Positions 22,026 to 27,189 of a stretch of 64,000 bases of DNA are shown in pieces. This DNA comes from Corynebacterium jeikeium. GTDB lineage: Bacteria; Actinomycetota; Actinomycetes; Mycobacteriales; Mycobacteriaceae. Below the pieces are notes generated by a model. It was given only the letters and a program-made list of their open reading frames with translations. It was not told the origin of the DNA and made no database searches. Within the stretch, counting starts at the first letter, position 1; every line of letters begins with the position of its first letter. The position numbers and the translations under genes are program-made. Location: contig NZ_JFCH01000022.1 in assembly GCF_000738175.1 (NCBI RefSeq), positions 1 to 64,000 on the forward strand, read 5' to 3'.

Positions 22026-22041
22026 TGTTTCACGTGAAACA
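22026..22041. promoter_or_regulatory. parS: parS site 1
   Basis: Perfect TGTTTCACGTGAAACA, the universal 16-bp ParB-binding palindrome, 36 bases upstream of rsmG. Confidence 0.97.
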
Positions 22042-22797: not shown

Positions 22798-22813
22798 TGT
22801 TTCACGTGAAACA
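22798..22813. promoter_or_regulatory. parS: parS site 2
   Basis: Perfect TGTTTCACGTGAAACA in the rsmG-parA spacer, 29 bases before parA. ParB bound here could also influence parAB transcription. Confidence 0.97.
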
Positions 22814-22842: not shown

Positions 22843-23781
22843 ATGTCGACCTTCGACATGGATGAAACACCCATTGGGCGAGCCGCCCAGCAGGCCGCGC
22901 GTTTGAAGAACCCAAACCGGAATAAGCTGCCGCGGCCGGAGAAGTGCAGGAAGATCACCATTGCCAACCAAAAGGGTGGCGTTGGTAAAACGACCTCTAC
23001 CGTGAACCTTGCTTGGTCACTCTCCCTTTTAGGCATGAAGGTGCTCGTTATTGACCTGGATCCGCAGGGTAATGCGTCGACGGCCCTCAACGCGGTGCAC
23101 CATACTGGAACACCCTCGTCTTATGAGGTTCTACTGAATGAGATGACTATCGACGAAGTGATGCAGGGCAACGAAGACAATGAGAACATCTTCTGCGTTC
23201 CCGCCACTATCGATCTTGCCGGCGCTGAGATCAACTTGGTGAATGAAGTACGTCGTGAGTACCGACTTTCTTCCGCTATCAGTGACGAGTGGATCGAAGA
23301 ACACGGCTTCGATTACGTCTTTATCGACTGTCCCCCATCCCTCGGGCTCCTGACGATCAATGCAATGACCGCCGTCAACGAGGTACTCATTCCGATTCAA
23401 TGTGAGTATTACGCCCTTGAAGGCGTAACCCAGTTGATCGATAACATCGCCATGATTCGGGAGAACTTGAATCAGAACCTCCATATTTCGGGCGTTCTAC
23501 TAACGATGTATGATGGTCGCACACGGCTGTCGCAGAACGTCAGCGACGATGTTCGTACCCACTTTGGCTCCGTGGTCTTGGATAACCATATTCCGCGTAA
23601 CGTCAAGGTATCCGAGGCTCCGAGTTACAACATGACAGTGTTGCAGTACGACGGTGGCGCGCCTGGTGCGCTTGCTTACTATGACGCAGCGAAGGAGTTC
23701 GCTCAAAGAGGCGACTATCTCCCGGCGGTGGAAACTGCACCGATCGGTATTGCCCCAGAACTCCATAATCAGGGTGATTAA
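22843..23781 (+). CDS. parA: Chromosome partitioning ATPase ParA
   Basis: 312 residues. The deviant Walker A motif KGGVGKTTS appears near residue 45 after IANQ, and a Walker B-like FIDCPPSLG follows, as in ParA/Soj ATPases. ParA forms nucleoid-bound gradients that pull the ParB-parS complex to the cell pole; in corynebacteria it also interacts with the polar growth machinery. A 35-residue non-conserved N-terminus precedes the ATPase domain. The stop is two bases before the parB start, so the pair is coupled. Confidence 0.96.
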
Positions 23782-23783
23782 TA

Positions 23784-25319
23784 GTGGGGAAGCGCAATAA
23801 AAAAGATTCCAAATTGTCAAAAAAAGAGTTAAAGAGCGCAAAAAATACCGCATCCAAGGTTTCGGGTGACAACTCGAGCCTTAATCTGGTGGATCAAGCG
23901 CCTCAAAGTCAGGAGAGTCCGTTGCCGAAGAGCAAGCCGACGGGCGCGAAGATGCCCCAGAAAACTGAAAAAGGTCTACCTTCGAATACCGGACGAGTTC
24001 TAGGGGCGACCAAGCCCAGTGGCTCATCTCGAAAGCCGCAGATGCCCTCCCCTAATGCGGTAGGCAATGCCCGCCGCGGTGGGCTTGGCCGCGGTCTTGC
24101 ATCTCTTATCCCTACCGGGCCCGCTCGCCCATCCCTAGGGGACGGAGCTGCGGACATAGTACTGGGTAGCGGATCAGGCAGTAACAACGGAGCTAGGAGT
24201 TCCCATGTCGGCGCACAATCGCAAATCGGCGCAAAGGACTCTCGGGAAACAGATTCGCACAGCACCCCACATACTGACCAAGGAAAGCGACAAACGGGTC
24301 TGAGCGATTCTGATCAGTCGAATTTCGATGGCGTGAGTGCCGTTCAAGAGGGTACTTCGGGTATGGATCCGAAACGTCACAGTGACGCTTCAGGATCGGC
24401 TGCCCGGGAGTACTCCGGATTGGGAGGCGGAGTGTCTGAGGGTCGTTCCTCAGCTGCCACTGATTCGAATGTTTCACGTGAAACATCGCAAGACGATTTC
24501 GGGGCAACCTACCAAGAGCTCCCCCTCGACGCCATTCGTACAAATGCGAAGCAGCCGCGAGAGGTGTTTGACGAGGAGGCCCTCCAAGAACTCGTCCACT
24601 CCATCAAGGAGTTCGGGCTCATGCAGCCGATCGTCGTTCGTAAAGCTCCAGATGAGGATTCTACGTATGAGCTCATCATGGGCGAACGCCGTCTTCGAGC
24701 TGCGAATCGGGCCGGGTTCGAAGTAATCCCTGCAATCGTTCGGGAAACTGCTGACGATGAGATGCTCCGGGATGCGCTGCTGGAGAATATTCACCGTGTT
24801 CAGCTGAATCCACTAGAAGAAGCAGCTGCGTACCAGCAACTGATGGAGGAGTTCGGAGTAACCCAGGAGCAGCTGGCGAAGAAGATCGGGCGGTCTCGTC
24901 CGCTTATCACTAATATGATTCGCCTTCTTCAATTGCCTGTATCTGTGCAGCGGCGAGTCGGAGCCGGTGTGCTCAGTGCCGGCCACGCGCGTGCTCTACT
25001 CGGCTTGAAGAGTGGCGCGGAGGAGCAGGAGAAGCTTGCTACTCGTGTCGTAAGCGAGGGATTGAGTGTCCGCGCCACAGAAGAAGCAGTGACTCTTCTT
25101 AACCGAGGGGAAAAGGCAACTAGTGGCACAAAGCTCAGCGGTCGCACACCTCAGCAGCTGCCTGAAGATGTTTCCAACTGGATTGACAGCGCCTCTGATG
25201 CTCTGGAGACCAAGGTCAGTGTTCAGATGGGGAAGAAAAAGGGCAAGATTGTCGTTGAATTTGGTGGTCCTGAGGACTTCGACCGAATTGTCGAGCTGTT
25301 GAAGTTCAAGAAGCACTAG
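23784..25319 (+). CDS. parB: Chromosome partitioning protein ParB
   Basis: 511 residues, well above the usual 330-380. The first ~235 residues are a Ser/Gly/Lys-rich, probably disordered extension containing [11 protein letters not shown], the conserved ParA-activating peptide. The CTPase/ParB-N domain follows ([22 protein letters not shown], with [15 protein letters not shown]), then the helix-turn-helix ([23 protein letters not shown]) and the C-terminal dimerisation domain. GTG start at 23784. A perfect parS lies inside the coding sequence at 24471-24486. ParB spreads from the parS cluster and directs origin segregation. Confidence 0.96.
24471..24486. promoter_or_regulatory. parS: parS site 3 (inside parB)
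   Basis: Perfect TGTTTCACGTGAAACA within the parB linker region, reading as VSRET in the protein. A parS inside its own ParB gene is also known in other bacteria. Confidence 0.97.
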
Positions 25320-25417: not shown

Positions 25418-25999
25418 ATGTCTCTGACCGTAAGTGAAGCTATTACCTCTCGCCGAGCAACGCGCCAGTACACCGATCAGGCGATTCCCGCTGAAGTCTT
25501 GGATCGAGTGGTTCAGAATGCCCTCGAAGCCCCTAGTGCATTTAATGCGCAGATGCGTGACCTGGTAGTTGTCCAGGATGAGGCCGTTAAGCAGGCGATT
25601 TTCGACGCCTCGGGGCAACAGCAGTTCCTAGATGCGCCCGTGGTATTCGTGGTGGTCGGCCGATCCGAGGTGGTGCCGGACGATGCTGAGAAGATTCTCG
25701 GAGCAGATCTAACGGAGAAGGTTCGTGGTTTCAACGGCTCGGCATCCGCGGAGAAGCTTCGCGAAATTGGTATTCGAGATGCCATGCTGGTTGCAGGATT
25801 CCTGCTACTTGCAGCCCAGGAACAGGGTCTGGCTACCTCCCCCACCACCGGTTGGAACGAAGATGGCGTCAAGAAGGCAATTGGCCTCGAGGGGCGCGAC
25901 GACCGATCAATCGCTCTCGTAGTGGCTGCGGGCTACGCCAATGAAGAACCCACTCATCCAGGCCGTGCGGCGAACCGACGAGTGAATGACCACTATTAA
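25418..25999 (+). CDS. Nitroreductase-family flavoprotein
   Basis: 193 residues of the FMN-dependent nitroreductase family. The N-terminal SRRATRQYTDQAIP holds the phosphate-binding Arg pair, and APSAFNAQ resembles the NAPS/SPSA cofactor-contact motif. A GWNEDGVKKAIGL region and the C-terminal ALVVAAGY and NRRVNDHY complete the fold. Such enzymes reduce nitro groups, quinones or flavins with NAD(P)H. The ATG has AAAGGAG upstream. It is 98 bases after parB and ends before a combined parS-terminator. The physiological substrate is unknown. Confidence 0.85.
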   Translation: MSLTVSEAITSRRATRQYTDQAIPAEVLDRVVQNALEAPSAFNAQMRDLVVVQDEAVKQAIFDASGQQQFLDAPVVFVVVGRSEVVPDDAEKILGADLTEKVRGFNGSASAEKLREIGIRDAMLVAGFLLLAAQEQGLATSPTTGWNEDGVKKAIGLEGRDDRSIALVVAAGYANEEPTHPGRAANRRVNDHY

Positions 26000-26021
26000 T
26001 CGGTTGCTCTTCCACTTCTAA

Positions 26022-26056
26022 CCCCGATGTTTCACGTGAAACATCGGGGTTTTGTG
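26022..26056 (+). terminator. Terminator hairpin after the nitroreductase gene, built on parS site 4
   Basis: The parS core at 26028-26043 is extended on both sides by CCCCGA and TCGGGG, making a 28-bp perfect palindrome (26022-26049), followed by TTTTGTG. As RNA it is a hairpin with a U-tract, so one sequence can act as ParB-binding site and transcription terminator. Confidence 0.8.
26028..26043. promoter_or_regulatory. parS: parS site 4
   Basis: Perfect TGTTTCACGTGAAACA at the centre of the terminator palindrome; the most origin-distal of the four sites in the window. Confidence 0.97.
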
Positions 26057-26202
26057 TAACGAAAAACTAGCGATTTTGCCACGGGAATGATTGGTCCCCT
26101 ATAGGATTCTCGTAGAAACCAACCGCACGCAGCGGATTGCGCATTCCAGACTCGCTACTTTCAGGGACTCTTGGATGTCTTCAACGAACAGAAAGGAGCG
26201 CT

Positions 26203-27189
26203 GTGGAAGTACATATTAAAGCCATCACGCCTCAGTGTTCCGAAGATCTAGAGCCCAGTGCTGCGGCATCGACTTTCTGGGCGCTCCCCCCGGCTTACGG
26301 GACTCAGCGTAGTTCAGCCAAGGATCCGCTATTCGATAAGCAAGTATGGCTGCAGAATGTCCTGCTGGAATGGGGAATCTGCGGCTACACGGCCTTCGTC
26401 AGCGCCGGAGGTGCAGGTACTCGCCCAGTTCCAGCAGCGACGGTCTTCTTCGCTCCTGCGCGCTATATGCAGGGCATCGCGAACATGCCAACTGGGCCGA
26501 TCTCCCCTGATGCAATCCTGCTGAGCACCGTCCACGTGGCGGTTCCGTATATGGGCCTATATCTGGAACATCAACTCATCGATACTGTGCTTACCGAGGC
26601 GCACCGACGGGGAGTCAAGGCAGTAGAGGCTTTCGCTCGAGTTGAGGACTTTGACGAGGAGTTTGCACGGCAGCTCAACGAGCCTTCGTGGCAGAAGGTG
26701 CGGGACGAGACAAAAAAAGAAGAAAGCGGATACAGCGCGCTCGAATCTCTCAAGTATGTGCCCGAATCCTATCGGGGCTGGAAGACCGCCGCGGAAACCC
26801 ACGGGGGCAACGCGGACATTTTGGATAGCGCCCCGATGCTCTCCGAGGACATTCTCGAGGCGGAGGGTTTCAAGGTGGTTAAACACCACCGACACTTCCC
26901 ACGCTATCGCTTTGAGATCAACGGGCCCCATAGCCTCTTTGGGGACTTTGCTGAAGAGGATCACGCACAGGTCAATGGACCGGAGAAGATTTCCACGGTA
27001 ATTGGTGGAAACCAGACACTAAAACTAACTGGAACGTCTAGAACGCTCGCAACGCGCGGAAACCCTGAAACGCCCGGCAGTTCTGGAAGTCTCGCAGCGC
27101 TTGGACGAGGCAGAACGTCCAGCCGGATGACTAAGCTCAGTCAAGCCAGTCCGGAGCAGAATCTACTTGTTCGGAAGCTCTTCCTGTAG
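26203..27189 (+). CDS. GNAT-like acetyltransferase-fold protein (Rv3916c-like)
   Basis: The start is GTG at 26203, five bases after AAAGGAG; the frame is open from 26137 but has no better start. 328 residues. The region from about residue 70 to 150 (PVPAATVFFAPARYM to LEHQLIDTVLTEAHRRGVKAVEAFAR) resembles a GNAT N-acetyltransferase core. The C-terminal ~70 residues are Gly/Ser/Thr-rich and weakly conserved. The place between parB and cwlM, on the opposite strand to cwlM, is conserved in mycobacteria. It converges with cwlM and overlaps it by 27 bases. Substrate is unknown. Confidence 0.7.
   Translation: MEVHIKAITPQCSEDLEPSAAASTFWALPPAYGTQRSSAKDPLFDKQVWLQNVLLEWGICGYTAFVSAGGAGTRPVPAATVFFAPARYMQGIANMPTGPISPDAILLSTVHVAVPYMGLYLEHQLIDTVLTEAHRRGVKAVEAFARVEDFDEEFARQLNEPSWQKVRDETKKEESGYSALESLKYVPESYRGWKTAAETHGGNADILDSAPMLSEDILEAEGFKVVKHHRHFPRYRFEINGPHSLFGDFAEEDHAQVNGPEKISTVIGGNQTLKLTGTSRTLATRGNPETPGSSGSLAALGRGRTSSRMTKLSQASPEQNLLVRKLFL

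Follow-up and report, generated by a model that had tools for sequence, protein, structure and literature searches.

One chromosomal parS site of Corynebacterium jeikeium lies within a longer perfect palindrome, followed by a T-rich run, at the 3' end of the parAB operon. The element is real, is conserved as a structure and is not ordinary; what is new about it is that two known things are combined. In our preferred reading, to which we give a probability of about 0.8, one sequence would do two jobs, the parS doubling as the stem of an intrinsic terminator that closes the parA-parB(-nitroreductase) operon. This dual use, as a ParB site in DNA and as a terminator in RNA, had been proposed from the letters of this locus (below, the sequence-only reading), and it now has good support from conservation, covariation, strand asymmetry and position.

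The extended parS site at the parAB locus

The features considered here are listed in order of position within the window, which is the whole stretch of DNA that was analysed (64,000 nucleotides).

22026 to 22041, no strand: exact parS upstream of rsmG, extension 0
22798 to 22813, no strand: exact parS between rsmG and parA, 2-bp extension only
22843 to 23781, + strand: parA (AAA_31, E 1.7e-57)
23784 to 25319, + strand: parB (ParB_N, HTH_ParB and ParB_C; TIGR00180 above cut-off)
24470 to 24485, no strand: exact parS inside parB, 1-bp extension only
25418 to 25999, + strand: nitroreductase-family gene (PF00881, E 7e-22), the final operon gene before the hairpin
26020 to 26051, + strand: 32-bp perfect palindrome made of parS and 8 further pairs on either side, predicted to form a hairpin as RNA (from sequence, fold, conservation and covariation)
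26028 to 26043, no strand: parS core TGTTTCACGTGAAACA, the last of the genome's four exact sites (sequence search)
26050 to 26057, + strand: TTTTGTGT, the T-rich run that would serve as tail of the intrinsic terminator (from sequence)
26100 to 26107, + strand: TATAGGAT, identical in the window and the four genomes closest to it
26203 to 27189, + strand: gene 3' of the hairpin, without a Pfam or NCBIfam match

All four exact parS sites of the 2.42-Mb assembly (63 contigs) fall inside 4.1 kb at parAB, and no further parS was found elsewhere in the assembly at up to two mismatches. The site at 26028 has the attributes of a chromosomal parS, namely the exact 16-bp consensus, membership of a parAB cluster, a low copy number and a ParB with the cognate domains. 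Given the exact site and this ParB, the core is probably bound by ParB. Upstream of rsmG lies a gene that we take from its translation to be yidC. Past the 26203-27189 ORF come an amidase gene and then a gene that we read from its translation as trxA, both on the opposite strand. The octamer at 26100-26107 may be a -10 element for the next transcription unit. An Rfam search of the window returned two tRNAs and no further match.

The palindrome starts 20 nt after the stop of the nitroreductase gene (25999), and its two halves are AACCCCGATGTTTCAC, from 26020, and GTGAAACATCGGGGTT, to 26051. The sequence-only reading had recognized the perfect dyad symmetry but gave its length as 28 bp (26022-26049), too short because it did not count two A-T pairs that share letters with the T run. 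It was right that a T-rich run, TTTTGTGT from 26050, directly follows, and also that the other three parS sites are not similarly extended: symmetry continues for 8 bp past the 16-bp core at 26028 versus 0, 2 and 1 bp at 22026, 22798 and 24470. We estimate the random odds of eight more matched pairs at one site at about 0.25^8.

The predicted RNA fold has an energy of -29.2 kcal/mol, compared with a mean of -12.8 for shuffled sequences (z = -6.1), and none of 200 shuffles was equally low. The terminator score is 18.9 on the forward strand and -15.1 on the reverse. As in known intrinsic (Rho-independent) terminators, a G+C-rich hairpin stands behind a stop codon with a T-rich tail on the same strand, and the stem covaries; unlike in those terminators, the inner 16 bp are fixed as a ParB recognition site. 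The T run at 26050 is short and interrupted. A promoter and terminator consensus scan of the window did not list the hairpin at 26028, probably a miss rather than a true absence, in that a stem rule extending through AA/TT leaves too few T.

Conservation and covariation in Corynebacterium

Of the 151 genomes of the genus, 149 yielded a ParB, and the neighbourhoods of 141 (the window and 140 others) were compared. These parB loci hold 96 exact parS sites, 59 with one mismatch and 27 with two. Extensions of at least 6 bp occur at 13 of the 96 exact sites, while the 86 mismatched sites never exceed 4 bp. Ten of the 13 are within 0.8 kb behind parB in the window's nearest genomes, and the other three are outside this group, one in L093 and two in L110. 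Two of these outlying sites, L093 7958 (9 extra pairs) and L110 1735 (7), lie at another gene end, between rsmG and parA. Arms alone need not mean a terminator, because L093 has little T tail and one L110 site, with a 6-bp extension, is apparently inside parB judging by gene extents.

We treated the window and L035-L051, the top 18 genomes by ParB score, as a clade. An exact parS lies 16-752 bp past the parB stop in all 18, and within 2.5 kb behind parB in none of the 123 other loci, within the stretches compared; a parS with one or two mismatches stands directly behind parB in six of these 123. In two of the genus's genomes, L057 and L059, two adjacent one-mismatch parS sites are located 5-33 bp behind parB, with no terminator candidate within the next 200 nt. 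Downstream, the 26203 ORF or a homologue is 3' of the hairpin in 17 of the 18 clade genomes and the oppositely oriented amidase is present in all 18, the window included in both counts.

The gene preceding the clade parS differs: it is the nitroreductase gene in nine genomes and parB itself in the other nine. The window, L035-L041 and L045 have the nitroreductase gene, which was not found in L042-L044 and L046-L051, a distribution that points to its gain or loss within the parAB operon. The earlier placing of termination after the nitroreductase gene is too narrow as a description: relatives without that gene have the hairpin directly behind parB, and what it marks is where the parAB operon ends.

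The sequence-only reading had noted that conservation of the 16-bp core alone in relatives would speak against it. The opposite was observed: the whole block ACCCCGA-parS-TCGGGGTTTTGTGT is unchanged across the window and its four closest genomes by ParB, and both flanks are variable. With the five closest genomes, the window shares nearly identical arms. More distant members of the clade have arms with new letters that are yet paired (CCCCGA, GGGCAA, GCCGGA, GGCGGA, TGGCGA, GCGGGA). At least five perfect extra pairs are found at 11 of the 18 clade sites, and L041 has six extra pairs of which one is G.U. Arms are absent or weak in six of the 18 (L044, L045, L046, L047, L049 and L051); L046 and L047 retain a weak hairpin centred on parS, with T5 as its tail and a score below 0. 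The core is invariant across the 18 sites, which were picked as exact.

Pairing in the arms was compared with shuffled controls, which leave the relatedness among genomes in place. Over the 18 clade sites (16 distinct rows), 79.7% of cells are paired versus 54.2% after shuffling, and the covariation score is 0.632 versus 0.237, a value reached by none of 500 shuffles; it is at most 0.269 when the alignment is slid by 1-3 columns. Of five covariation measures, three were reached by 0/500 shuffles, one by 1/500 and one by 90/500. The last counts the pairs in which both partners have changed (8 of 8). Pairs 3-6 beyond the core are all complementary at 11 of 18 clade sites, compared with a mean of 2.3 and a maximum of 7 in 1000 arm swaps; the corresponding figure for the other sites is 3 of 76, versus 0.4 after swaps (maximum 5).

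These results bear on a reading in which bound or clamped ParB is itself the roadblock that stops RNA polymerase, the hairpin being accessory and ParB feeding back on its own operon. The site closes the ParB-encoding operon in the 18 nearest genomes, as such feedback would have it, and ParB-parS is reported to repress adjacent promoters in Pseudomonas aeruginosa (PMC7022226). A roadblock would need neither covarying arms nor a T tail, yet both are often kept, and we consider this reading unlikely.

The terminator scores differ by strand. Of 20 clade sites behind parB, 9 score above 0 on the parB strand and none does so on the reverse strand; the 76 other exact sites score above 0 on neither strand. 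In L039, L040 and L048 arms are present and the score is below 0, with the reverse strand scoring better in L048 (-13 versus -37). Among the 22 outgroups nearest by ParB identity, the first 200 nt past parB never yield a T-tailed hairpin with a score over 0, and eight of the 22 lack any terminator candidate there.

The same comparison weighs on the idea of an extended DNA palindrome, in which the outer arms would make ParB loading stronger or give it a direction, the T run being incidental. The pairs at +/-1 and +/-2 are common at other parS sites (0.74 and 0.47 of 76 exact sites), so the ParB core may slightly exceed 16 bp, and the extension apparently inside parB in L110 also fits a role in DNA. 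Against this, arm letters change by subclade without a consensus (on a ParA+ParB tree with several weakly supported inner forks), scores above 0 are confined to one strand, the sites follow stop codons, and the arms are missing at the window's other three parS sites. The G.U pair tolerated in L041 fits RNA better than a symmetric DNA site. On this evidence we regard the DNA-only explanation as very unlikely.

Recurrence in other bacteria

We scanned genomes for parS with four G/C on either side and TTT behind, a pattern that does not require the arms to be complementary. The scan set was contigs from one genome per species (at least 119 stretches). Among the 130 directional matches listed, in which palindromes readable both ways are counted twice, the arms are fully complementary in 116 (likewise with double counting), compared with a mean of 17.7 and a maximum of 32 when right arms are swapped. 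Counted as distinct arm pairs among the matches listed, 14 of 27 are complementary, versus 1.8 by swapping (maximum 8). The candidate explanation that the pattern arises by chance only is rejected by these controls.

The matches listed represent at least 105 loci in eight named phyla. Among them, Pseudomonadota account for at least 47 loci, 34 of which are from Burkholderia, Paraburkholderia, Trinickia or Caballeronia, Actinomycetota for at least 32 and Bacillota for at least 18. Spirochaetota and Bacteroidota have at least two each among the matches listed, and Fibrobacterota, Thermomicrobiota, Armatimonadota and one unassigned lineage at least one each. By crude ORF calls, 97 of the 116 complementary matches listed are outside ORFs, and the 19 inside an ORF were kept in the counts. 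On the same crude calls, a same-strand ORF ends 10-80 bp before the centre in 69 of the 116, and an opposite-strand ORF lies there in five. Two examples directly behind parB come from Psychromicrobium silvestre, whose 46-bp palindrome begins 5 nt past the parB stop, carries T-rich tails in both directions and faces a thioredoxin-like gene, and from Arthrobacter pullicola, where the palindrome is 38 bp long and begins 9 nt past the parB stop. At other loci, the upstream genes are presumably an ABC transporter gene, mnmG/gidA or a D-Ala ligase gene, names that are our reading of the translations.

Within Corynebacterium we count 18 occurrences of the pattern, spread over 15 of 151 genomes, and by eye the arms are complementary in all 18. 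In an even sample of Actinomycetota it was found in one of 149 genomes, the window's own, and the same sample contains 364 parS 14-mers spread over 98 genomes. The design is thus recurrent yet uncommon, given one genome in 149 despite 364 parS 14-mers, and is concentrated in some lineages; as the pattern is strict, these frequencies are lower bounds only. The proposal that parS-terminators are general is rejected by the same 1/149. As a separate observation from this sample, one 3.4-Mb actinomycete genome of another family (G292) has 114 parS 14-bp cores, compared with 14 in a member of its family (G204) and 0-23 in the other genomes.

That terminator and parS overlap by accident in one lineage and were co-inherited accords with the rarity of the pattern across Actinomycetota at large and with the almost identical arms that the window and its five nearest genomes share by descent, but is hardly credible given several distinct arm sequences at the same clade position and complementary arms in 116 of the 130 matches listed, from eight named phyla.

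Mechanism, precedents and implications

Under our preferred reading of a parS that doubles as a terminator stem, the central 16 bp would be bound by ParB as double-stranded DNA, and the same letters, transcribed together with the G+C-rich arm pair, would fold into a hairpin. The T-rich tail would then allow RNA polymerase to be released, ending the parAB transcript. The arms and tail were probably added onto a parS already standing behind parB. We infer this order because a one- or two-mismatch parS occupies that place in six of the 123 genomes that are not clade members, and no terminator candidate of the 22 near outgroups scores above 0 within 200 nt of parB. Part of the benefit may be that transcription is kept from running through and past parS.

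In Corynebacterium glutamicum, parS sites are clustered on one side of oriC and nine of ten are intergenic (PMC7083940). The site described here is of the same 16-bp kind, and differs in that it belongs to a conserved terminator-like stem; the main text of PMC7083940 contains no word beginning 'terminat'. The nearest precedent known to us for a DNA motif that shares its letters with terminators appears to be the neisserial DNA uptake sequence, a short recognition motif that also forms Rho-independent terminators (PMC2397512). The neisserial stem is built of two motif copies as inverted repeats, whereas here a single palindromic parS, recognised by ParB, is the stem. Other parS sites have been connected with transcription: one overlaps the gidB promoter in Mycobacterium bovis BCG (PMC2346475), and at parS3 and parS4 of Pseudomonas aeruginosa ParB is reported to affect neighbouring promoters (PMC7022226). 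Both cases concern initiation, whereas the parS here concerns termination. A search by title or abstract start, restricted for some topics to the best 10-20 of 116 to 1,498 matches and mostly excluding subscription journals, found no description of a parS inside a terminator.

A broader idea, which we put forward tentatively and would not ourselves bet on, is that parS-terminators form a recurring composite class in several phyla. Polymerase would be let go where ParB loads, so that transcription does not disturb the loading and sliding of the clamp, and at the end of parAB the occupancy of the site by ParB might tune read-through.

The placement of parS and the loading of ParB alongside transcription are, in our view, open questions. 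A parS-terminator is a natural test case for them, as arms, core and tail can be changed separately in one sequence, and such elements may explain part of the placement of parS at gene ends. They also carry a warning: deleting or relocating a parS can alter the expression of neighbouring genes through lost termination and not lost segregation.
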